In this document: positions 41,128 to 57,554 of the stretch, piece by piece
How the letters are laid out: each line of letters starts with the position of its first letter
Position numbering within the stretch: the first letter of the stretch is position 1
Assembly: GCA_026388545.1 (NCBI GenBank)
Contig: JAPLJS010000104.1
Span: 1-59,834, forward strand
Direction: 5' to 3'
DNA from: Deltaproteobacteria bacterium
GTDB lineage: Bacteria > Desulfobacterota > Syntrophia > Syntrophales > UBA2185
DNA: 59,834 nucleotides
Notes under the pieces: model-generated
Databases searched by the model: none
Told to the model about the DNA's origin: nothing
The model's input: only the letters and a program-made list of their open reading frames with translations
Position numbers and translations under genes: made by a program

Positions 41128-42642
41128 ATGCCGGATATCATCGTTATAGGAGGGGGACCGGGTGGGACTGCCGCCGCGACTCGCGCCGCACAGCTTGGCG
41201 CGCAGGTGACCGTGATTGAGCGTGCACACCTGGGCGGTAACTGCGTCAATAACAACTGCATCCCCTTGACCAGCCTGCTGGCGAGCGTCGAGTTGTACCG
41301 GCGCATCGGCCAGGCCGGTGACATGGGCATCCAGGTAGGACCAGCCTCGCTCAATGTGCCCGGGATGATTGCTCGCAAGGATCGCATCGTTCAAGATTTG
41401 CGCGAGGGGATAACGGGCCTGCTGCCGACCTTTGGCATCGAGATCGTTCAGGGCCAGGCCCGTCTCGTGGATGCGAAGACGGTCGAGGTGGATGGACAAC
41501 GCTTGCGGGCAACCCGCGCCATCATCCTGGCGACCGGGGCGCGGTGGGCGCCGTTGCCGCCTGGCGTGGAGGATGTCCTGCGGCCCGACGAGGCGATCAA
41601 GCTCGACTCGGTGCCGGGCCGGCTGCTCATCTGGGGCGGGGGTGCGTCTGACATCGAGTTTGCCACGTTATATGCCGCGCTGGGCAGCCAGGTGACGCTC
41701 GCCGTGGACGGGCCATACCCCTTGCCCATGGAAGATTACGAAATCGGTCAGCGGCTCCAGGGCATCTTGCAGAACCAGGGCATCCAGGTGATGAACGACG
41801 TCCGCGTCAAGTCCGCGATGCGCACCGGCGGGGGGTTGGATGTCACCCTGTCCGGTTTGAAGGGCGAGACTCCGGTCGTGGTGGACAAATTGCTATGGGC
41901 CGGTCGCGTCCCGGCGACCAACGGGCTGGGATTGGAGGAGGCAGGTGTCAAACTGGCCGACGGCGCCGTCATCGTGGACGCCCGCATGCAGACGAGCGTG
42001 CCGTGCGTCTATGCCCTGGGCGATCTGACCGGCGGGCGGATGTATTCCTCGCTGGCAACGGCCGGGGGTCTGGTGGCCGCGGAAAACGCGATGGGACGCA
42101 ATCGCCGCCTGGATCAACGCGCGGTGCCGCGCTATGCGTTCTCGATCCCCGAAGTCGCTACCGTCGGCCTGACCGAAGACGAGGCAACTGACAAGGGCTA
42201 CGACGTTGAGGTCGCCAACATCGCCTATGGAACAAACACGCGGGCGATGGGCCTGGGCGAGGTCGAAGGCGGCATCAAGTTCGTCACCGACCGCAAGCTG
42301 GGCAAGGTCTTGGGCGTTCACATCGTCGGCCACCGGGCGACCGAATTGATCGCCGAAGCGACACTGGGTATCCAGCTCGAAGCCCTGGCTGAGGATTTTG
42401 CGTGGGCTATCCGGATTCACCCGACGCTGAGCGAGAGTATGGTGGAGGCCGGGCGAGCGATCCTTGGCCAGGCGTTGACGCCCGCCGTCGGGGTGACATG
42501 GGAGATGCGCTGCTTCTCGTCGAGCACCCGCCGGTCATCACGCTGGGTTGTGCAGGCGGAAGCGAAGATTTGCGTGCATCCTCCGACTATCTCCGGCAAC
42601 TCGGCATTGAAGTCATCCCAACCGAGCGCGGTGGACGCATGA
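41128..42642 (+). CDS. lpdA: Dihydrolipoyl dehydrogenase E3, with an aberrant C-terminal tail
   Basis: E3 reoxidises dihydrolipoyl-E2 with FAD and NAD+. ATG 41128 follows GGAGG (41118-41122); the frame is open slightly upstream. [19 protein letters not shown] binds FAD. The redox disulfide is in [11 protein letters not shown] (usual family form GGTCLNxGCIP). The NAD site [13 protein letters not shown] is a degenerate GxGxxG. HPTLSESM near residue 431 has the catalytic His-Glu pair. After about residue 450 the E3 homology ends. The last 50-odd residues (ending SSQPSAVDA) are lipB DNA read in another frame. The native stop codon was apparently lost in a deletion fusing it to lipB. Confidence 0.88.
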
Positions 42643-43940
42643 CGTATCACGGCCCGGGCCAACTGGTTGTTTATCCAATCCTGAAATTGCCGAACGATGA
42701 CCTGCATGATTATCTATGGCGATTGGAGCAGGTCGCGCTGGAGGTTCTGAACGAATGGGACATCGCCGCCAGGCGTGTCGAGCGGCACCCGGGCGTATGG
42801 ATCGGACGAGACAAGATCGCGGCAGTGGGCGTGGCGGTGCAGGATCGGGTGACGACTCACGGACTGGCGCTCAATGTTGATCCCGACATGGCACACTTTC
42901 AGTTGATCGTCCCGTGCGGCTTGAACAGCCGTGGCGTCACATCCATGCGGGCAGTCCTGGGGAAGCCAGTGGCGATGGAGGAAGTCGAACACAGTTTCGC
43001 TGCTGCCTTTAGCCGCGTGTTCATGCGCCAGGTCGCGCCGCGTTTGATGCCCGGGCCATGGCTGGTTGCTCCCGCGCCCCAGGAAGCGACGGCGAGAATT
43101 GAGCAATTGGTCGCCGATTTGAGTTTACATACTGTTTGCCAGGAAGCCGCCTGTCCGAACATCGGTGAATGTTGGGCGCGGGGCACGGCCACGTTCATGC
43201 TGCTCGGCAATGTGTGTACTCGTCACTGTCGCTTTTGCAACGTGAAATCCGGCCACCCGCTTCCACCCGATCCACAGGAACCTTGCCGTGTCGCCGAGGC
43301 GGCTGTGAGAATGGGTCTGCATCATGTCGTCTTCACCTCGGTCACGCGCGACGACCTGCCCGATGGCGGCGCCGGCCAGTTCGTCTTGACCATCCAGGCC
43401 ATTCGTAACCGCTTGCCCGGTACGACGGTCGAGGTACTTGTTCCCGATTTCTGCGGGTCGCTCCCGGCTCTGGACACTGTGGCCGCCGCACGGCCCGATG
43501 TGTTCAATCACAATGTTGAGACCGTCGAGCGGCTGTCTAACAAAGTGCGGGCCAAGGCCGGGTATCGCCGTTCGCTGGCCGTGCTGGCCTGGGCCAAACA
43601 GCGAAGACTGACAACCAAATCAGGGTTGATGGTCGGCCTGGGCGAGACGTGCGGTGAAGTGATCGAGACAATGCGTGACCTGCGCCGCTCCGGTTGCGAC
43701 ATTCTGACCATCGGCCAGTATCTTCAGCCGACGAGCCGGCAAATCGAGGTGGCCGATCACGTCCACCCGGTCGTGTTCGCGTGGTATCGTGAGGTAGGTC
43801 AAGCCCTGGGTTTTCAAATGGTCATGGCCGAGCCTTTAGTGCGCAGCTCGTACCATGCGGAAGAAGTCCGGGCAGGGAAAATGATGCCCGGTGTTTTCAG
43901 TTCAGGAGCTGTTGGCAACTCCACAAGTAGAGAACTTTGA
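42498..43940 (+). CDS. Fused octanoyltransferase-lipoyl synthase (LipB-LipA), LipB N-terminus missing
   Basis: LipB transfers octanoate from ACP to lipoyl domains; LipA inserts two sulfurs by radical SAM chemistry. The LipB part (about residues 1-175) starts at [13 protein letters not shown] and has [12 protein letters not shown], the catalytic Lys in [10 protein letters not shown] and Cys in [11 protein letters not shown]. It lacks about 34 residues that normally precede this point. The LipA part has the auxiliary cluster [12 protein letters not shown], the SAM motif CTRHCRFC and the terminal RSSYHAEE, so it is complete. The start ATG 42498 lies inside the E3 gene in another frame, a 145-nt overlap. 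The frame is open back to 42402, but that stretch shows no homology to LipB. Confidence 0.85.
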
Positions 43941-47243: not shown

Positions 47244-48725
47244 ATGACCTCGAAAAGGGACAAAATTTTAAAATCGGTGATAACATTCCCTACCATTCCG
47301 GCTGACCGCGTGACCGAGGACGCCATCGAGCGCAAGCTGTATTCGCGCGACCTGGCCCCTGTCCCGGCCATCATGGTCAAGCCGTTTTTCCTGACGCTGC
47401 CCGATGCCGTCATCCGGCCCGGCACCGCCGAGCACGTGGCCGAGGTGATGCGCCATGCCGCGCGCGAGCGCATCCCGGTCACACCCCGCGCCGCCGCCAG
47501 CACTAGCTACTATAACTCCGTGCCCGTGCGTGGGGGATGGGTGCTGGATGTGAATGACCTGCGCGATGGAATCGAGCTGGACGCCGCGCGGCAGACCGTT
47601 CGAGTGCTGCCGGCCACCACCTGGTTTGATCTGGATGACGCCTTGCAACAGAGGGGCTTTGCCGTCAAGTCGTATCCGTCAAGCGCGGTCTCGGCGACTG
47701 TCGGCGGTTGGGTGAGTATGCAGGGTCACGGCATGGGCAGTCTCAAGTACGGCGGAGTGGGCGAGCTACTGGTCAGCTTGCAAGTGGCGCTGCCGAATGG
47801 CGAGCTGGTCAACGTCACGCGCGAAAGCGATCCGCCGCTCGACTGGTTCGTCGCCGCCGAAGGCACCTTGGGCGTGATCACCCAGGTTGAACTGACCATC
47901 CGCCCGCGTCCTGCCGCTGAGTCTCATCACCTGTTCGCCTTCGATGACCTGAACACACTCGGCCGGAACGTCGTCTCGCTCGCCCGCGCTGAGCCACGCC
48001 CCTTCACCATCTTTTTCGCCGACAGCGGCTACCTGCGCCTGCTGGCGCGCGCCGGGTTCCACATTCCGCTCGACTTGCCGCAGTCACATTTTCCTGTCAG
48101 CGAGAAAAGCTTGCTCCTGGTAAGTTTCCAGGGCGAGCCGTATGAGGTCAATCAGGGCAAAGACAGGCTGACCCGTGTGGCGGGGTGCGAGCTGTCTTCC
48201 GACCTGGCGCTGGAGGAATGGAATCTGCGCCTGTATCACCTGCGCGCCAAGCGGGCCGGGCCAACGCTTTTGGCTGCCGAATCGTGGCTGCCGATAGACG
48301 CGCTGCACCACTACCTCAAGTCGGTCAAGGCCCTGGCCGAACGCAGCCGTTTGCTGATCGGTACTTATGGCCTGGCCGTCGCACCGGACATGGCCCTGGT
48401 CATGTCTCTCTATCCGACCGACGAGCGACGTACAGTAAAATACCTGGCGGCGCTTGGATTCACCAAGCGGTTGCACGACCTGGCCGCGCGCTATGGTGGG
48501 TGGCCCTACGGTGTCGGGCTGTGGAACTCGGCCTACCTGCCCCGGTTGTTCAGCCGGACTCGATTGTCCGAGCTCAGGCGGCGCAAGGCGCGGCTTGATC
48601 CGTCGGGCATCATGAATCCAGGCAAGTTGTATCAGGCGTCGTTCCCGTTGTGGCCGATCACGTTTGGCATAGGAGCTACAGTGCTTGGCGCGGCGCACAT
48701 CGCACTGGGAAGGGAGCGGCCATGA
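47244..48725 (+). CDS. FAD-binding oxidoreductase, GlcD/D-lactate dehydrogenase-like
   Basis: A 493-residue PCMH-type flavoprotein. RERIPVTPRAAASTSYYNSVPVRGG and SAVSATVGGWVSMQGHGMGSLKYGG form the FAD site. AAEGTLGVITQVELTIRP is the conserved end of that domain, and SGIMNPGKLY the C-terminal FAD-oxidase signature. The last 25 residues (PLWPITFGIGATVLGAAHIAL) are hydrophobic, suggesting membrane attachment. It overlaps the Fe-S subunit gene by 4 nt (ATGA). The first 15 codons are AT-rich like the upstream spacer and the rest strongly GC-rich. The join near 47285 could be a recombination boundary. The substrate is probably a 2-hydroxy acid. Confidence 0.86.
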   Translation: MTSKRDKILKSVITFPTIPADRVTEDAIERKLYSRDLAPVPAIMVKPFFLTLPDAVIRPGTAEHVAEVMRHAARERIPVTPRAAASTSYYNSVPVRGGWVLDVNDLRDGIELDAARQTVRVLPATTWFDLDDALQQRGFAVKSYPSSAVSATVGGWVSMQGHGMGSLKYGGVGELLVSLQVALPNGELVNVTRESDPPLDWFVAAEGTLGVITQVELTIRPRPAAESHHLFAFDDLNTLGRNVVSLARAEPRPFTIFFADSGYLRLLARAGFHIPLDLPQSHFPVSEKSLLLVSFQGEPYEVNQGKDRLTRVAGCELSSDLALEEWNLRLYHLRAKRAGPTLLAAESWLPIDALHHYLKSVKALAERSRLLIGTYGLAVAPDMALVMSLYPTDERRTVKYLAALGFTKRLHDLAARYGGWPYGVGLWNSAYLPRLFSRTRLSELRRRKARLDPSGIMNPGKLYQASFPLWPITFGIGATVLGAAHIALGRERP

Positions 48726-49873
48726 AGGATCAGGCCTTTTTCGAAGGACTGATGGCCGAAGCAGTCATCTGCGCTTACTGCGGCTATTGCCGGGCGGTCT
48801 GCCCGACCTACGCGGGCGTCGGCTGGGAATCATGCTCGCCACGCGGCCGCATTCAACTCACCCGGCTGATCATGGAGGGAACACCGCCGACCGCAGATCA
48901 GATGACGCGGCTCTACCAATGCACGCTGTGCGGACACTGCACCCAGGTCTGCTCAACGCGCATTGATCTGCGCCGGTTCTGGCTGGAGGCGCGCAGGCAA
49001 ACAGTCGCGCGAGACCTGTCGCCCCAAGGGTTGGCGGCGGCGCGCGATAACGTCGCCAAGACCGGCAACGTCTATGGCTACCCGAACGACGAACGGGCCG
49101 GCTGGGTCGAGTATATGGATGATGCCCCCGCCGATCTCTACCAACGGGATCAGGCCGGGATGGTCTATTTTGTCGGCTGTTTGACGTCCTTTTCGCCGAG
49201 CGTCCAGCGCATCGCCGAGGCGTTTGTCCGCGTACTCGAAGCCGCCGGGGTGGATTTCACGATCCTGGGCGAAGGCGAAATCTGCTGCGGCTTTCCGCTG
49301 CTTGCCGCCGGGATGCATGAACAGGCGCACGCGGTGATTGAGCGCAACCTGGAACATGTCCGCGCGATCGGCGCAACAACCATCGTCTTTAACTGCCCGG
49401 CCTGCCGGATGATGTGGCTTGAAGAATACGCTCGCCATTTGCCCGGCGTGCGGCTGCTCCACTCGACCGAGTTGCTGGCAGAGTTGACTGCTGCCCAACG
49501 GTTGCCGATGAAGGATGTAAAACGAATAGTCACGTACCACGATCCGTGCGACCTGGCGCGTAATGGTGGGGTGTATGATGCGCCGCGCGCGGTGCTGGCG
49601 GCAATCCCGGGTCTGCAGCTCATCGAGGTACACGAGCGGCGCGAGCGGGGGCTGTGTTGCGGCGGCGGCGGCGACCTGGAAATGGTAGACCCGGCGTTGA
49701 CCGGGCGCGTGGCGGCGCGAACGGCAGGCAAGCTGGCTGCAACCGGCGCACAGGTCATCGTGACCGCCTGCCCACAGTGCGTGCGGACGTTGACGCGCGG
49801 AGCAGAGCAAACCGCTCCCGATGTCACAGTGAAAGACATCGTAGAATTGCTGGCCGAGGCCCTGGACAAATGA
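48722..49873 (+). CDS. Fe-S oxidoreductase subunit, GlcF-like with two CCG domains
   Basis: 383 residues from ATG 48722, overlapping the flavoprotein stop. Two [4Fe-4S] ferredoxin motifs (Cys17, 20, 23, 27 in CAYCGYCRAVCP; Cys67, 70, 73, 77 in CTLCGHCTQVC) precede two CCG domains (GEGEICCGFPLL with NCPACRMMW; GLCCGGGGDLEM with ACPQCVRTL). Together with the flavoprotein it forms a hydroxy-acid oxidoreductase that delivers electrons to quinone or another carrier, as in GlcDEF; no GlcE-like subunit is seen. It shares its GC-rich composition with the 34797-43940 cluster. Confidence 0.87.
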   Translation: MKDQAFFEGLMAEAVICAYCGYCRAVCPTYAGVGWESCSPRGRIQLTRLIMEGTPPTADQMTRLYQCTLCGHCTQVCSTRIDLRRFWLEARRQTVARDLSPQGLAAARDNVAKTGNVYGYPNDERAGWVEYMDDAPADLYQRDQAGMVYFVGCLTSFSPSVQRIAEAFVRVLEAAGVDFTILGEGEICCGFPLLAAGMHEQAHAVIERNLEHVRAIGATTIVFNCPACRMMWLEEYARHLPGVRLLHSTELLAELTAAQRLPMKDVKRIVTYHDPCDLARNGGVYDAPRAVLAAIPGLQLIEVHERRERGLCCGGGGDLEMVDPALTGRVAARTAGKLAATGAQVIVTACPQCVRTLTRGAEQTAPDVTVKDIVELLAEALDK

Positions 49874-49905
49874 CCCTTATCACTATTACGAGAATAGCCA
49901 CCGTA

Positions 49906-50010
49906 TATTCCCCCCTTTAGCAAAGGAGGGTTGGGGGGATTTGATAATCGTTAGAAAAATCCCCCTGTATCCCCCTTTACAAAGGGGGACGTATCAGGAT
50001 AAAGTTATTT
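49906..50010. repeat. Compound CCCCCTTT/AAAGGGGG palindromic repeat
   Basis: CCCCCCTTTAGCAAAGGAGGG near 49909-49930 is followed by GGGGGATTT (49934-49942) paired with AAATCCCCC (49957-49965), and then CCCCCTTTACAAAGGGGG (49971-49988). The tail GGGGGACGTATCAGGATAAA recurs, with two changes, at 50641-50660. It lies in the 246-bp gap between the Fe-S subunit gene and the GcvH-like gene. Confidence 0.7.
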
Positions 50011-50119
50011 TCAATTTTTTATGGATTTCCACCGGAGCCTGCCCTCGAATGCACTTATCGGGGGTGGGAATGACGAAAAGGAGGCATTTTTCAAAGGTCT
50101 CACAATTAAGGAGGTCCGT

Positions 50120-50563
50120 ATGGCTCAAGTCGAAGGAATCAATTTGCCGGATGAACTCTATTACCATCCGGATGATCACCTGTGGATGCGCATGGAAGGC
50201 ACACGGGCAACCGTTGGGCTAAATGACCTGGCCCAGCGATCAGCCGGAGCGGTGACCGCCGTCCGGCTCAAGCCGCCGGGCCGGCCCATTGCCAAGGGCA
50301 AGCCGTTCGGAACGATGGAAGCGGGCAAGTACGTCGGGCCACTCAGAGCGCCCATCGCGGGACAGGTAATCGAAATCAACCCGGAGGTCATGAATAAGCC
50401 GGGTTTGTTGAACTCGGATCCTTACGGCAAAGGCTGGCTGATTCTCATCGAGCCAGAGAATGCAGAGCGCGATTTGCCCGACCTGATGCATGGCGATGCC
50501 ACTCAGACGTGGCTGGAGAAAACCATCGCCGATTGGCGCAAACGAGGATTACTGAAGAGTTAA
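50120..50563 (+). CDS. GcvH-like lipoyl carrier protein
   Basis: A 147-residue protein homologous to glycine cleavage H protein. YYHPDDHLWMRMEGTRATVGLNDLAQ and NSDPYGKGWLILIEPEN are GcvH signatures. The lipoylated Lys is Lys70 in GTMEAGKYVGPLRAPIAGQV. A C-terminal extension of about 30 residues (ending ADWRKRGLLKS) exceeds the usual end. ATG 50120 follows AAGGAGG (50108-50114). No gcvP or gcvT is in the window. Its GC-rich composition ties it to the dehydrogenase/lipoylation cluster. It may be a lipoyl carrier for that system or for the adjacent flavin/Fe-S oxidoreductase (inference). Confidence 0.85.
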   Translation: MAQVEGINLPDELYYHPDDHLWMRMEGTRATVGLNDLAQRSAGAVTAVRLKPPGRPIAKGKPFGTMEAGKYVGPLRAPIAGQVIEINPEVMNKPGLLNSDPYGKGWLILIEPENAERDLPDLMHGDATQTWLEKTIADWRKRGLLKS

Positions 50564-51510: not shown

Positions 51511-53039
51511 GTTAGGCGCTGATCACGTAAATGAAAGGAGGACAAAATGGCTACTTCAAATTTGGGCAGAAGTTACACAGTTCATGGAGGTGATGAACGT
51601 ATGGCATCTCACACAAAACACCTGTCGTTTTTCGGTGCCACTGTTATGGCGTTTGCTTGTGCAATCTTGTTGGCGGCGCAATCCGCTCTGGCGCTGGATA
51701 TTTCCTTTCGCAGCTTTAGTGGCTCGGCGGCAATCGGCCCTCCCGCGGATGAATATGCCGCCAAGCTGCTGAGCATTTCGACGACCGTTCTCGGTAAGGC
51801 CGGGGAGGTCAAGTTCACCAAGTACACGCCGACCCCGGCGATTCCCAAAAAGTTCAAAGATATTGTGGCCGCCGTCGGCGCTGGGGGACCTTTGGCGGGA
51901 GGGAAAGGGTTCGACGCCGCCTATATTTCGGGATCGGACCTCAACCCGGCATGGGGGTTTATTTACAATTCGGCAGTTCCCTTCGGCCCCAACTTCGATG
52001 AGTTCATAGGCTTTCTCTATGGGAAGTCGATCGAAGGCACAGAGAGCGGCCTCGACCTGCTCCGGCAAATACTTGACAAAAGCGGCAAGAACGTTGTGGC
52101 GGTTCCCATTGTCGGAAGCAGTCAACAGGGCTCCGGCTACTTCATGCTGCCGATAGGTAATGTCGGATCAACGGCCGGCGTCGGCTTGGCCGGGTTGTGT
52201 CAGCAGAACTGGACGTTCCGCTACCTCCCGCCGGCTCAGTACGTTCTCGATCGCGCATGTGACAACCTGGTAGCGGGTGGCGTGATTCCGAAAAAGAACA
52301 TCAAGTTTATCACGGCCATCGCCGGGGGTGGGTCTCTGGTCAAGGCCGTGGTCGACGGCCAGATTCAGGCGTATGAATTCGCTACTCCCCTCGACGACTT
52401 CTCACAGCTTTTCGGACTTCCCGAGGGAAATCCCGGTACTGTGGGGACTCGGTACCTGCACTTCCCCGGCTGGCACCAGCAGTTCCTGATCACCTACATG
52501 ATCATCAATAAGAGCGTATGGAACAAGTTAAGCCCGGCCCAGCAGGCGCTTGTCATGAGCGTTGGTCGCGACCACGTCCTGTCGTCGTATGGCGAAAACC
52601 TCAGACAGCAAGGCGCCAAGCTGAAGCAGATCCTGACGGCCAATGATGCTGACAAGAATCCCGATAACGACCTGGAGCTCGTGCAGTGGCCTCAGAGCGA
52701 TCTGGCGCTGCTCAGAGATGCGACCATACAGTTCCTGAACGCTCGGATCTCCAATGTGACACTCAGCGAACAAGACCGGAAGGACTACGGCAAGATCCTC
52801 GAATCGCTGAGGAAATACGTCAGCAGTAACAACGGGTACTGGAAGGTGCGTGAAGTACCCAGCGCGCTTCGTTTCCAAGGCTGGTACGATCCAGATGGCA
52901 AGAAGAGTTGGGATCAGACCCTGAAGTAAACCCTGTCTATTGCACCTTGTCAAAGGCTAATCGAATGTTGGTCAGAAATTTGCTGCCCAACCACAACTAA
53001 GGGACACGGCAAAAAGCCGCCGCGCCCCTTAACTTGGCG
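51511..53039 (+). mobile_element. Integron-type gene cassette carrying a TRAP solute-binding protein
   Basis: The left core site GTTAGGC (51511-51517, form GTTRRRY) lies 36 nt before the gene's ATG. The attC-like site lies 55 nt after its stop and ends with a GTT at 53039. The R'' box of that attC, GCCCAAC, is complementary to the left core GTTAGGC at 6 of 7 positions, the seventh being a G-T wobble. That is the relationship expected when a circular cassette was inserted at G^TT. The unit would be about 1.5 kb, at the large end for cassettes. No integrase is in the window. Confidence 0.65.
51547..52929 (+). CDS. TRAP transporter solute-binding protein (DctP-like)
   Basis: A 460-residue periplasmic binding protein. 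ATG 51547 follows AAAGGAGG; the signal peptide is preceded by a long n-region of about 25 residues (HSFF-like hydrophobic core at 27-48, cleavage near SALA, residue 49). An internal Met19 could be an alternative start. The mature part has the DctP pattern: FDAAYISGSDL, FGPNFDEFIGFLYG, VVAVPIVGSSQQGSGYFML, IQAYEFATPLDDF, GWHQQFLITYMIINKSVWNKLSPAQQALV. The last pattern is the hallmark of TRAP DctP near the hinge. No DctQ or DctM permease gene is present, so the protein is an orphan that must dock to a transporter encoded elsewhere. Confidence 0.85.
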   Translation: MATSNLGRSYTVHGGDERMASHTKHLSFFGATVMAFACAILLAAQSALALDISFRSFSGSAAIGPPADEYAAKLLSISTTVLGKAGEVKFTKYTPTPAIPKKFKDIVAAVGAGGPLAGGKGFDAAYISGSDLNPAWGFIYNSAVPFGPNFDEFIGFLYGKSIEGTESGLDLLRQILDKSGKNVVAVPIVGSSQQGSGYFMLPIGNVGSTAGVGLAGLCQQNWTFRYLPPAQYVLDRACDNLVAGGVIPKKNIKFITAIAGGGSLVKAVVDGQIQAYEFATPLDDFSQLFGLPEGNPGTVGTRYLHFPGWHQQFLITYMIINKSVWNKLSPAQQALVMSVGRDHVLSSYGENLRQQGAKLKQILTANDADKNPDNDLELVQWPQSDLALLRDATIQFLNARISNVTLSEQDRKDYGKILESLRKYVSSNNGYWKVREVPSALRFQGWYDPDGKKSWDQTLK

Positions 53040-53620: not shown

Positions 53621-54790
53621 ATGCAAAACTTCGTATTCGAAAATCCGACCCGGATTATTTTCGGCCAGGGAATGATTGCCCGTATAGGCAGTGAAGTCAA
53701 TCGATGCGGAAAGAAGGTACTTCTGGTCTATGGCCGGGGCAGTATCAAAAGAAATGGGATATATGATCAGGTGATCTCCTCTCTCAATGAGGCAAACCTT
53801 TCCATCGTGGAATTTCCCGGCGCCAGATCGAATCCTGTTCTCTCCCATGTTCTCAAGGGGATCGAACTTGCCCGGCGCGAAAATGTTGACGTCATACTTG
53901 CCGTAGGAGGGGGCAGCGTGATCGATACGGCAAAGACGATCGCTGTGGGTGTAAAGGCGGATCCCGGTGAAGATCTCTGGGAGTTTTTCACCTTTAAGAA
54001 AAAGATACGAGGCGCTATTCCCATTTTGACCGTTGTTACCGTGTCCGCCAGCGCCTCGGAGATGAATCCCACGGCTGTCATTACAAAGGAGGAAGGCGCA
54101 CAGAAACTCACCATCGTCTCTCCCTTTATACAGCCCAAGTCGTCTGTCCTTGATCCCACCGTTCTGTATTCGCTTACCCCTGATTATAGTGCCTACAGCG
54201 CCGTAGACATCATTACGCACATGTTGGAAGGCTATTTTAACAACAGGGAACCGGAGAGCCCGCTCCAGGACAGACTGGTTGAAGGGATAATGAAAACCGT
54301 TATGGAAAGCACAGAAATAGTTCTTAATGATCCTCAAAATTATAACGCCAGAGCCAACATGATGTGGTCGGCAACACTCGCATTCAACGGATTGACAACG
54401 GCAGGCATGGGTCTTGTCAGCTTTCCCGCTCATATGATGGGACACTCACTGAGTGCATTTTACGATATTGCACACGGCGCAGGCCTGAGCATAACACTGC
54501 CAGGCTGGATGATCTATGCCATGCCCAAAAACCCATCGAAATTTGCCCGATTGGGAAGAGAGCTTTTTCATATCAAAGAAAAGGACGACCTGAAAGCGGC
54601 GGCGGAAGGGATCAATCATTTGAAACGCTGGTTCTCATCAATCGGCAGTCCCGTATCGCTGAAAGAGGCCAATGTATCGGAAGCCGAGATCGGCAGAATT
54701 GCGGAAAACGCGTCTGCAACAGCCTTGGTGTGGGGAATGAAAGCGTACACGAGAGAGGTCATTGCGGAAATACTGAGCCTTTGCAAATGA
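53621..54790 (+). CDS. Iron-containing alcohol dehydrogenase (possible 4-hydroxybutyrate dehydrogenase)
   Basis: A 389-residue group III Fe-dependent NAD(P) alcohol dehydrogenase. The nucleotide motif GGGSVIDTAK is at residues 96-105. SEMNPTAVIT, YSAVDIITHMLEGYF (metal Asp and His) and SFPAHMMGHSLSAFYDIAHGAGLSI (two further metal His) complete the active site. The butanol-dehydrogenase-like N-terminus is NFVFENPTRIIFGQG. Next to 4-hydroxybutyryl-CoA dehydratase, conversion between succinate semialdehyde and 4-hydroxybutyrate is the likely reaction (inference). It is preceded by two promoter-like sequences and by GAAAGGAG. Confidence 0.88.
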   Translation: MQNFVFENPTRIIFGQGMIARIGSEVNRCGKKVLLVYGRGSIKRNGIYDQVISSLNEANLSIVEFPGARSNPVLSHVLKGIELARRENVDVILAVGGGSVIDTAKTIAVGVKADPGEDLWEFFTFKKKIRGAIPILTVVTVSASASEMNPTAVITKEEGAQKLTIVSPFIQPKSSVLDPTVLYSLTPDYSAYSAVDIITHMLEGYFNNREPESPLQDRLVEGIMKTVMESTEIVLNDPQNYNARANMMWSATLAFNGLTTAGMGLVSFPAHMMGHSLSAFYDIAHGAGLSITLPGWMIYAMPKNPSKFARLGRELFHIKEKDDLKAAAEGINHLKRWFSSIGSPVSLKEANVSEAEIGRIAENASATALVWGMKAYTREVIAEILSLCK

Positions 54791-54857: not shown

Positions 54858-56078
54858 ATGAAGAGGTACGGAGATTTTATCACATCCGAGGAGGAACTGG
54901 CCTTTTTGACGACCATCCGCAATTATGTCGAAAAGGAAGTAATGCCGGTCCGCATGCAATTGGATGATGACTATGCCGTGTTTGATAAGGCCTATGCCGG
55001 CCTGGTCAAGCTCGGCATCCAGAAACGGGGTTTCTCGCCGGAATACGGTGGCCTGGGAATTCGTTCGGGGCCTACGGTCTGCGCCATTTCTGAAGAGATA
55101 TCGAGAGGAGACAGCGGCCTTTCCCTGCACACCCTGATTATCCCATGGTGTCTGGCGGCTGCGATGGGCGCCCGCAACAAGTTCCTGATGGAAAAATTCA
55201 TTCCCATGTTCTGTGAAGACACGCCGCGTTGCGGCTGTATGGCCATTACCGAGCCGGCGGGAGGCTGCAATATTGAAGATGTAGGCGAACGCGCGCGTAC
55301 TATTCGAACCACGGCCAAGCTTGAGGGAAATGAATGGGTCATCAATGGTCAAAAGATGTGGCCCAGCGGCGCGAGCATTGCAGATGTCTATTGCGTTGTC
55401 TGTACCACCGATCCCGGCCTGAAGGAAGAAGGGGTGGCTCTCATCTATGTCCCGAAGGATACTGCCGGACTTTCCTTCGGCAAACCGGAAGAAAAGATGG
55501 GGATGAAGGTAACGGATGTGAATACCGCCATCTACTTCGATAACGTAAGGGTGCCGAAGGAATATCGAGCCGGAGGGCCCGGTGTTGACTGGCAACTATT
55601 CAGGGCCAACGTCGGCTGGGGTCGGCTCACGAGCGCTCCCATCTCGCTTGGAAACGCGCAAGCCGTTTTAGAGGCCGTCATAGAGTTCAGCAAAACGAGG
55701 GCTTACGGGGGGAAACCCGTCCGGAATCATTCCCTGCAAGCGGCCATGATCGCCGACATGGCCATCGGCATAGAATCGGCCCGCGCCTTTTACCTCACTG
55801 TCGCGGCGATGTTCAATAACCGGAAGAGATTTGGAAACCCGGGAGAGGAATACCTCATAGCGCGTGCGAGTGCAGCCAAGGTGCATGCCTGCGACGTCAC
55901 GGAGATGGTATGTAATAGAGGGATGGAGCTCATGGGCTCCTACGGCTATGCCCGGGAGTACCACGTGGAGAAATACCTGAGGGACAGCAAGATTATCCAG
56001 ATATGGCTTGGTGGAGGGCAGCTGGCGAGACTTGACGTGGCCCAGAGCTACTATCCTTACATGAGCAGTGGTAAGTAA
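54858..56078 (+). CDS. Acyl-CoA dehydrogenase family protein without the canonical catalytic Glu
   Basis: 406 residues from ATG 54858 (Shine-Dalgarno AAGGAGGG). The ACAD fold is complete: a helical N-domain, MAITEPAGGCNIEDV and EWVINGQKMWPSGA of the FAD/substrate beta-domain, and a C-terminal helical domain (MELMGSYGYAREYHVEKYLRDSK). Where active enzymes read QIYEGTxxI, with Glu as the base, this one has QIWLGGGQLARLD, so Glu is replaced by Leu. The alternative base position used by isovaleryl-CoA dehydrogenase also seems to be Gly (NVGWGRL). It lies between the Fe-ADH and AbfD genes, so its substrate is probably a C4-CoA, but oxidation by the standard mechanism is doubtful. Confidence 0.85.
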   Translation: MKRYGDFITSEEELAFLTTIRNYVEKEVMPVRMQLDDDYAVFDKAYAGLVKLGIQKRGFSPEYGGLGIRSGPTVCAISEEISRGDSGLSLHTLIIPWCLAAAMGARNKFLMEKFIPMFCEDTPRCGCMAITEPAGGCNIEDVGERARTIRTTAKLEGNEWVINGQKMWPSGASIADVYCVVCTTDPGLKEEGVALIYVPKDTAGLSFGKPEEKMGMKVTDVNTAIYFDNVRVPKEYRAGGPGVDWQLFRANVGWGRLTSAPISLGNAQAVLEAVIEFSKTRAYGGKPVRNHSLQAAMIADMAIGIESARAFYLTVAAMFNNRKRFGNPGEEYLIARASAAKVHACDVTEMVCNRGMELMGSYGYAREYHVEKYLRDSKIIQIWLGGGQLARLDVAQSYYPYMSSGK

Positions 56079-56102: not shown

Positions 56103-57554
56103 ATGGCACTGAAAACCCCTGAACAATATGAGGAGAGTCTTCGGAAACTCAATCTTAAAGTATATTTGATGGGCGAGTTGGTAAAAACCCCTGTAGATCA
56201 TCCCATCATCCGGCCGTCGATGAATTCGGTGAAGATGACTTACGCCCTTGCTCAGGACCCTCAACATGAAGATTTGATGACGGCGACATCGCACCTGACG
56301 GGACAAAAGATCAACCGGTTCTGCCACATCCACCAGAATACCGACGATTTGATCAAGAAGGTGAAGATGCAGCGGCTGATGGGGCAAAAGACGGGAGCCT
56401 GTTTTCAGCGCTGCGTCGGAATGGACGCCATCAATGCCATGGACAGCGTCACCTTCGAAATGGATAAGAAATTTGGCACCGGATATCGAGACCGATTTAT
56501 CAAGTTTTTGCTCATGATGCAGGAAGAAGACCTGACGGTGGATGGCGCGATGACCGATCCAAAAGGGGACCGGAGTCTCTCACCCGGCAGGCAGGCCGAT
56601 CCGGACCTTTATACACGCGTGGTGGAAAAGAGAAAGGACGGCATCGTCGTCCGGGGTGCGAAGGCCCACCAGACCGGGGCCGTAAATTCCCACTGGATTC
56701 TTGTCATGCCGACGATCACGATGACGGAAGAGGACAGCGACTATGCTCTTTCCTTTGTGGCGCCCGCCGACGCCGCGGGAATCTTCTATATTTACGGACG
56801 CCAGTCATGCGACACCCGAAAACTTGAGGGAGGCGAGATCGATGTAGGCAATCCGCAATTTGGCGGTCATGAGGCGCTGATGGTTTTTGATAATCTGTTC
56901 GTTCCCTGGGAGAACGTCTTTATGTGTGGCGAGTATGAATTCACCGGCGCTCTTATAGAGCGTTTTGCCGGTTACCACCGCCAGAGCTATGGCGGCTGCA
57001 AAGTCGGTGTCGGAGATGTGCTGATCGGCGCGGCGGCTCTGGCTGCCGATTACAACGGCGTTTCCAGGGCATCCCATGTCCGGGACAAGCTGATCGAAAT
57101 GATTCACCTCAACGAAACATTATATGCCTGCGGTATTGCCTGTTCGTCGCAAGGTCATAAGACCGCATCCGGAAACTATCTCATTGATTTGCTTCTGGCC
57201 AACGTATGCAAGCAGAACGTGACTCGCTTTCCGTATGAAATTGCGAGACTGGCAGAGGACATAGCGGGAGGACTCATGGTCACAATGGCATCGGAAAAGG
57301 ATTTGCGCCACCCTGAGATCGGCAAGGTCGTGGAGAAATATTTGAAAGGAGTGGCGTCTGTGCCGACGGAGCATCGCTGCCGCGTTCTGCGCCTGATTGA
57401 AAACATCACACTGGGAACAGCGGCCGTCGGATACCGGACGGAATCCATGCACGGCGCCGGATCGCCGCAGGCGCAGAGGATTATGATTTCACGCCAGGGC
57501 AACCTGGAATACAAGAAGGCTCTTGCAAAGGACATTCTCGGAATCAAAGATTAA
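56103..57554 (+). CDS. abfD: 4-hydroxybutyryl-CoA dehydratase / vinylacetyl-CoA isomerase
   Basis: A radical flavoprotein that converts 4-hydroxybutyryl-CoA to crotonyl-CoA. 483 residues. The [4Fe-4S] ligands of the Clostridium aminobutyricum enzyme (Cys99, Cys103, His292, Cys299) are matched by Cys100 and Cys104 in CFQRCVGMDA and by His292 and Cys299 in YHRQSYGGCKVG. TDPKGDRSLSPGRQAD, GAKAHQTGAVNSHW and GRQSCDTRKLEGGEIDVGNPQFGGHEAL are also conserved. Strong AAGGAGGG precedes ATG 56103. It is the third gene of an operon with Fe-ADH and the unusual ACAD. Succinate semialdehyde dehydrogenase and CoA-transferase genes are not in the window. Confidence 0.95.
   Translation: MALKTPEQYEESLRKLNLKVYLMGELVKTPVDHPIIRPSMNSVKMTYALAQDPQHEDLMTATSHLTGQKINRFCHIHQNTDDLIKKVKMQRLMGQKTGACFQRCVGMDAINAMDSVTFEMDKKFGTGYRDRFIKFLLMMQEEDLTVDGAMTDPKGDRSLSPGRQADPDLYTRVVEKRKDGIVVRGAKAHQTGAVNSHWILVMPTITMTEEDSDYALSFVAPADAAGIFYIYGRQSCDTRKLEGGEIDVGNPQFGGHEALMVFDNLFVPWENVFMCGEYEFTGALIERFAGYHRQSYGGCKVGVGDVLIGAAALAADYNGVSRASHVRDKLIEMIHLNETLYACGIACSSQGHKTASGNYLIDLLLANVCKQNVTRFPYEIARLAEDIAGGLMVTMASEKDLRHPEIGKVVEKYLKGVASVPTEHRCRVLRLIENITLGTAAVGYRTESMHGAGSPQAQRIMISRQGNLEYKKALAKDILGIKD

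Follow-up and report, generated by a model that had tools for sequence, protein, structure and literature searches.

Leucine in place of the catalytic glutamate in an acyl-CoA dehydrogenase homologue encoded with 4-hydroxybutyryl-CoA dehydratase in Syntrophales

We analysed an acyl-CoA dehydrogenase (ACAD) family protein encoded in the window, by which we mean the whole 59,834-nucleotide stretch of DNA presented above. On the evidence of alignments, an acidic residue is absent from all three base positions known in this family. The explanation that we favour, tentatively, is a functional FAD-dependent ACAD for short chains (about C4) in which Leu takes the place of the general base and no enzyme carboxylate would be needed for the alpha proton, the most likely reaction being reduction of an enoyl-CoA (crotonyl-CoA). 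The substrate, the direction and the proton source are the parts of this explanation that we infer. What is new in the WLGG lineage to which the protein belongs, judged from sequence, is that it matches no curated family, lacks an acid at all three known base positions and shows a recurrent exchange between Glu and Leu. The features concerned are:

53621..54790, + strand: Fe-alcohol dehydrogenase (Fe-ADH; butanol dehydrogenase/YqhD-like), conserved upstream partner in Syntrophales
54858..56078, + strand: ACAD family protein of the WLGG clade, 406 aa, without canonical or helix-G base
55128..55130, + strand: His91 codon, helix E, candidate compensating residue
55146..55148, + strand: Trp97 codon; Trp in 78/79 family members
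55275..55277, + strand: Glu140 codon, within the insertion that follows the TEP motif and is specific to the family; second candidate acid
55620..55622, + strand: Gly255 codon, at the alternative IVD/LCAD helix-G base position
56007..56009, + strand: Leu384 codon, at the catalytic Glu position (human SCAD Glu392, MCAD Glu376)
56103..57554, + strand: 4-hydroxybutyryl-CoA dehydratase/vinylacetyl-CoA isomerase (AbfD), with the Cys/His/Tyr/Lys signature

The ACAD reading frame starts at the ATG at 54858, with a good ribosome site (GAAGGAGGG) ahead of it, and stops at 56076-56078. All three ACAD domains (PF02771, PF02770 and PF00441) score above the Pfam cut-off, and the AlphaFold2 model (mean pLDDT 82.7; poor at residues 362-367 and 389-406) has the ACAD superfamily fold, with Z of 37-42 against about 50 ACAD entries. 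Cyclohex-1-ene-carboxyl-CoA dehydrogenase is both the best profile match (E 1e-69) and the top fold match (Z 42.0, 2.4 A over 363 residues), the latter tied with others within 1 and with MCAD and SCAD within 1-1.5; its identity to the window protein is 28%. SCAD/BCD share the whole fold, the FAD motifs and 27-28% identity with the window protein, and differ from it in having Glu392 (human SCAD) where it has Leu384, YEGT where it has WLGG, and no counterpart of a 7-residue insertion. The FAD and substrate regions had been described as intact in the initial annotation. For FAD this largely holds, in that the TEP motif, Trp168, Arg281 and the ELMG motif (ELMGxYGY) are conserved in the alignment and binding is predicted; differences common to the family are WPS for WIT, Gly386 at the Thr of YEGT and the 7-residue insertion after the TEP motif. 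No named NCBIfam ACAD equivalog was reached among acryloyl-CoA reductase, glutaryl-CoA dehydrogenase, 3-sulfinopropionyl-CoA (3SP-CoA) desulfinase and others (best score 181.5 bits against a cut-off of 640), and assignment to a curated ACAD family was rejected because every score lies far under its cut-off. The desulfinase (PDB 5AF7/5AHS), which combines the ACAD fold with a non-classical reaction, resembles the window protein in fold (Z 37.7) and differs in sequence, with 20% identity and 113.8 bits against a model cut-off of 600.

Acyl-CoA dehydrogenases are considered to need a base for the alpha proton, and ACADs without the canonical Glu are already known: IVD/LCAD, cyclohex-1-ene-carboxyl-CoA dehydrogenase, 3SP-CoA desulfinase and the steroid heterotetramers. 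In HMMER alignments with ACADs of known structure, SCAD among them, QIWLGGGQL falls on EIYEGTSEI, with Leu384 at the catalytic Glu position, so that the JK-loop Glu of the classical SCAD/BCD type is missing. VGWGRL falls such that Gly255, beside the conserved Arg256, occupies the helix-G site where the IVD/LCAD type has its Glu. Both replacements, read from the letters in the initial annotation, are thereby borne out. A third site is Asp91 of cyclohex-1-ene-carboxyl-CoA dehydrogenase (7P98), which we take to be the proposed base of that enzyme; it aligns with Trp97 in an ungapped profile alignment. With Leu384, Gly255 and Trp97, all three known base positions are non-acidic, and the alignments rule out both helix G and the Asp91 site as the new place of a shifted base. 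The structural relative is itself devoid of Glu at the canonical site (where it has Thr) and on helix G (Asn), and differs from the window protein in its Asp91. As a control, three paralogues from the same genome also lack the canonical Glu (L004 has Thr, L006 Ala and L008 Gly), and all three have the helix-G Glu, whereas the window protein has Glu at neither site. In SCAD, loss of the Glu (E392A) nearly abolishes activity (PMC13027082), which makes classical butyryl-CoA dehydrogenation unlikely unless the base has moved.

The Leu is conserved as a selected residue would be. Close relatives with 72-90% identity, here clade A, come from Syntrophales, other Desulfobacterota, Acetobacteraceae and marine Burkholderiales, and all 28 members in which the site is covered (the window protein counted) have Leu at 384. 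They encode it with five synonymous codons (CTG 13, CTC 6, TTG 4, CTT 3 and TTA 2), and pairwise dN/dS within the clade is 0.016-0.097. Together these observations point to a selected residue in a working gene and rule out a pseudogene or sequencing artefact. The sister of clade A, a WEGGGQ clade from Smithella, other Deltaproteobacteria and Dehalococcoidia, has about 60% identity to the window protein, the same insertion and motifs, and one member beside AbfD; it differs in having Glu at 384 and Glu at 91. Across 49 genomes checked, the Leu and Glu sister forms never occur together and are nearly always single-copy, and they thus behave as alternatives.

A tree of 81 proteins calls for at least four or five exchanges of Glu and Leu at residue 384, four of them being forced by well supported branches. 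A second Leu clade comprises Archaeoglobaceae, Desulfobacterota and one Dehalococcoidia member, and five sporadic Leu members fall outside both Leu clades. The exchanges are nearly always to Leu, a third residue (Ala) occurring in only one member. Since any Leu codon is two substitutions away from GAR, recurrent arrival at Leu would be unexpected under simple decay, and convergence on Leu and not on assorted residues suggests that Leu has a task of its own. One exchange lies within otherwise nearly identical operons from two Chloroflexi MAGs, with 92% identity between the ACADs and 87-92% between the two 2-hydroxyacyl-CoA-dehydratase-like subunits encoded beside them:

L116:9974-13752: Glu-type ACAD next to a 2-hydroxyacyl-CoA-dehydratase-like pair
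L128:596-4372: Leu-type ACAD next to a 2-hydroxyacyl-CoA-dehydratase-like pair

The context argument for the exchange draws on this one close pair, in MAG sequence. The pair is a natural mutagenesis experiment, and orthologues that differ by Glu or Leu offer a ready-made test of the need for the base and of how an ACAD changes its type of reaction. Among the loci of this family, a sporadic Leu-type gene at L115:5559-7587 lies immediately downstream of a gene for a TauE/SafE-type sulfite exporter, which could hint at desulfinase-like chemistry. At L109:487-3130 a class III aminotransferase gene lies 4 bases upstream of a Leu-type ACAD, and L100 has a class I/II aminotransferase at the equivalent place.

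The window encodes Fe-ADH, ACAD and AbfD in this order on one strand. As the initial annotation had it, the ACAD is encoded with AbfD: the downstream protein matches the Clostridium aminobutyricum enzyme 1U8V at E 9.7e-228 and has the cluster-ligand and active-site residues Cys100, Cys104, His292, Tyr296, Cys299 and Lys300. The ACAD-AbfD neighbourhood recurs in 8/10 Syntrophales members checked, mostly with the Fe-ADH, the gaps that were measured being about 20-120 bases. Outside Syntrophales, no clade A member lies directly beside a close AbfD; two such genomes have only AbfD-like genes of 39-44% identity, a few kilobases off, and seven (five marine Burkholderiales, G155 and G164, all MAGs that may be incomplete) give no AbfD match at E 1e-60. 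Proximity of the WLGGGQ type to abfD thus largely held within Syntrophales and failed beyond them: Fe-ADH, ACAD and AbfD form a genuine operon in Syntrophales, but the arrangement does not extend to the whole Leu clade. Conversely, the Glu-bearing sister L091 and an AbfD complete in its six signature residues apparently share an operon. Linkage to AbfD and loss of the base are therefore separable, and the idea that the base was lost on account of the AbfD chemistry is weakened, Leu being fixed in clade members that have no AbfD. A literature search of titles and abstracts returned no relevant paper on an ACAD with 4-hydroxybutyryl-CoA dehydratase in syntrophs. Syntrophales and their relatives (genomes G149-G198) have about 3-11 AbfD-family paralogues each, many at 38-60% identity.

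The pocket residues suggest a small substrate. Trp97 and Trp383 are near-invariant in the family and correspond to residues of the acyl-pocket wall in relatives, and Leu93 aligns with SCAD Ser117, the residue that ends the pocket; taken together, these alignments suggest a small acyl group, whereas the pocket of cyclohex-1-ene-carboxyl-CoA dehydrogenase takes a ring. The FAD motifs and the overall sequence are under strong constraint, so the enzyme is probably active. We propose that the Fe-ADH would interconvert succinate semialdehyde and 4-hydroxybutyrate, that activation of 4-hydroxybutyrate would fall to a CoA transferase encoded elsewhere, and that AbfD would make crotonyl-CoA, the window ACAD using the AbfD-derived C4 unit. 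Five CoA-transferase-family matches in the genome, including Cat1/AbfT-like ones, and an ETF pair (ETF-domain genes) are present. Reduced FAD, fed by ETF, would deliver hydride to a small 2-enoyl-CoA (crotonyl-CoA, for example) at C-beta, and C-alpha would be protonated by solvent or a backbone-held water instead of Glu. A reducing role is favoured by the way in which Glu and Leu have been exchanged while an enoyl-CoA-forming neighbour was kept, be it AbfD, which adjoins both the Leu form (8 Syntrophales loci) and the Glu form (L091), or the 2-hydroxyacyl-CoA-dehydratase-like pair. The common task would then be to act on a small 2-enoyl-CoA, for which hydride delivery from FAD is key and the alpha proton may come from elsewhere.

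Some observations count against a reducing role. The near-total loss of activity in SCAD E392A makes an ordinary base-less butyryl/crotonyl-CoA enzyme hard to accept, and simple dispensability of the base would seem to leave the convergence on Leu unexplained. Nor is an ACAD beside AbfD obligatory: in related genomes without this link, close AbfDs adjoin a thiolase, or an Fe-ADH and an aldehyde oxidoreductase, arrangements that fit ordinary use of 4-hydroxybutyrate. A bolder proposal for the WLGG clade, which we consider somewhat unlikely, is that Leu was repeatedly selected to suppress alpha-proton chemistry, giving a base-independent flavoenzyme (an enoyl-CoA hydride transferase or a redox-neutral C4 lyase/isomerase), and that exchange of Glu and Leu has served in evolution to switch between two modes of reaction. 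The window ACAD would also define a so far unassigned step in the metabolism of 4-hydroxybutyrate/crotonate by syntrophic bacteria, and it is a caution against labelling WLGG-type proteins butyryl-CoA dehydrogenase.

The main rival to enoyl-CoA reduction is redox-neutral or vinylogous flavin chemistry, which we rate as unlikely. Here FAD would take and return a hydride, or a C-gamma proton would be removed, and a 4-substituted or unsaturated C4-CoA would be isomerised or lose a leaving group while Leu384 kept water and acid/base groups away from C-alpha. The recurrent convergence on Leu specifically speaks for such a role, and the fold has precedents: BbuA, a gamma-butyrobetainyl-CoA TMA-lyase of the ACAD family, eliminates trimethylamine from its C4 substrate without net redox, and its discoverers compare it with 4-hydroxybutyryl-CoA dehydratase (PMC8364193). 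BbuA is likened to the window ACAD by description, not by sequence, and belongs to a different gene cluster (bbu). ACAD10/11 act redox-neutrally on 4-phosphoacyl-CoA (PMC12440821, PMC11342911), yet ACAD10 still requires an Asp at the base position (PMC11342911). Against this chemistry in the window, C4 elimination and isomerisation are already done by AbfD, the Asp91 of the closest structure is replaced by Trp97, and Ser89 lies at the helix-E position where glutaryl-CoA dehydrogenase has its substrate-binding Arg.

Rather doubtful, in our judgement, is a classical butyryl-CoA-type dehydrogenase whose base has been relocated to His91 on helix E, to Glu140 (inserted loop, near the thioester) or to an ordered water, as the precedents of IVD/LCAD and cyclohex-1-ene-carboxyl-CoA dehydrogenase might lead one to expect. 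His91 occurs in 34/39 Leu-type and 1/38 Glu-type family members, an association confounded by ancestry; an independent-pairs test of His91 against Leu384 on the family tree finds zero informative pairs. On a helix wheel drawn from the alignment, an angle of about 120 degrees would separate His91 from Trp97, so that His91 would face away from the residues that line the pocket; nor do the five sporadic Leu members have this His. Glu140 is almost invariant (79/80 members) and comes after a residue that aligns with a position at which SCAD contacts its substrate, but it is equally conserved in members that bear Glu384.

Quite improbable is a protein that is not catalytic alone. It would be the subunit without a base in a heteromeric ACAD, or would serve AbfD or ETF in a structural or regulatory capacity. 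One subunit of the alpha2-beta2 steroid ACAD heterotetramers does lack the Glu (PMC8399759), but the FAD-contacting residues are conserved here, the operon has no second ACAD gene that could supply a Glu-bearing partner, and none of the genomes checked has both the Leu and the Glu sister form. The Geoglobus locus L096:4406-7093 holds two tandem ACAD paralogues of the WLGG type, so that the tandem neighbour is base-less as well. An apparent fusion, a 793-aa ORF at the L072 locus, was rejected as a spurious frame.

Three other parts of the window drew our attention. Upstream of the Fe-ADH, a 460-residue ORF (51547-52929) has no match in Pfam or NCBIfam. The ORF at 42402-43940 joins a lipoyl/octanoyl transferase domain (LplA-B) to a radical SAM domain, and lies in one cluster with a second lipoate ligase and with genes of the 2-oxoacid dehydrogenase E1, E2 and E3 types. 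At 47244-50563, a gene for a GcvH-like lipoyl protein adjoins a GlcD/GlcF-like pair of FAD and Fe-S proteins, an unusual association.
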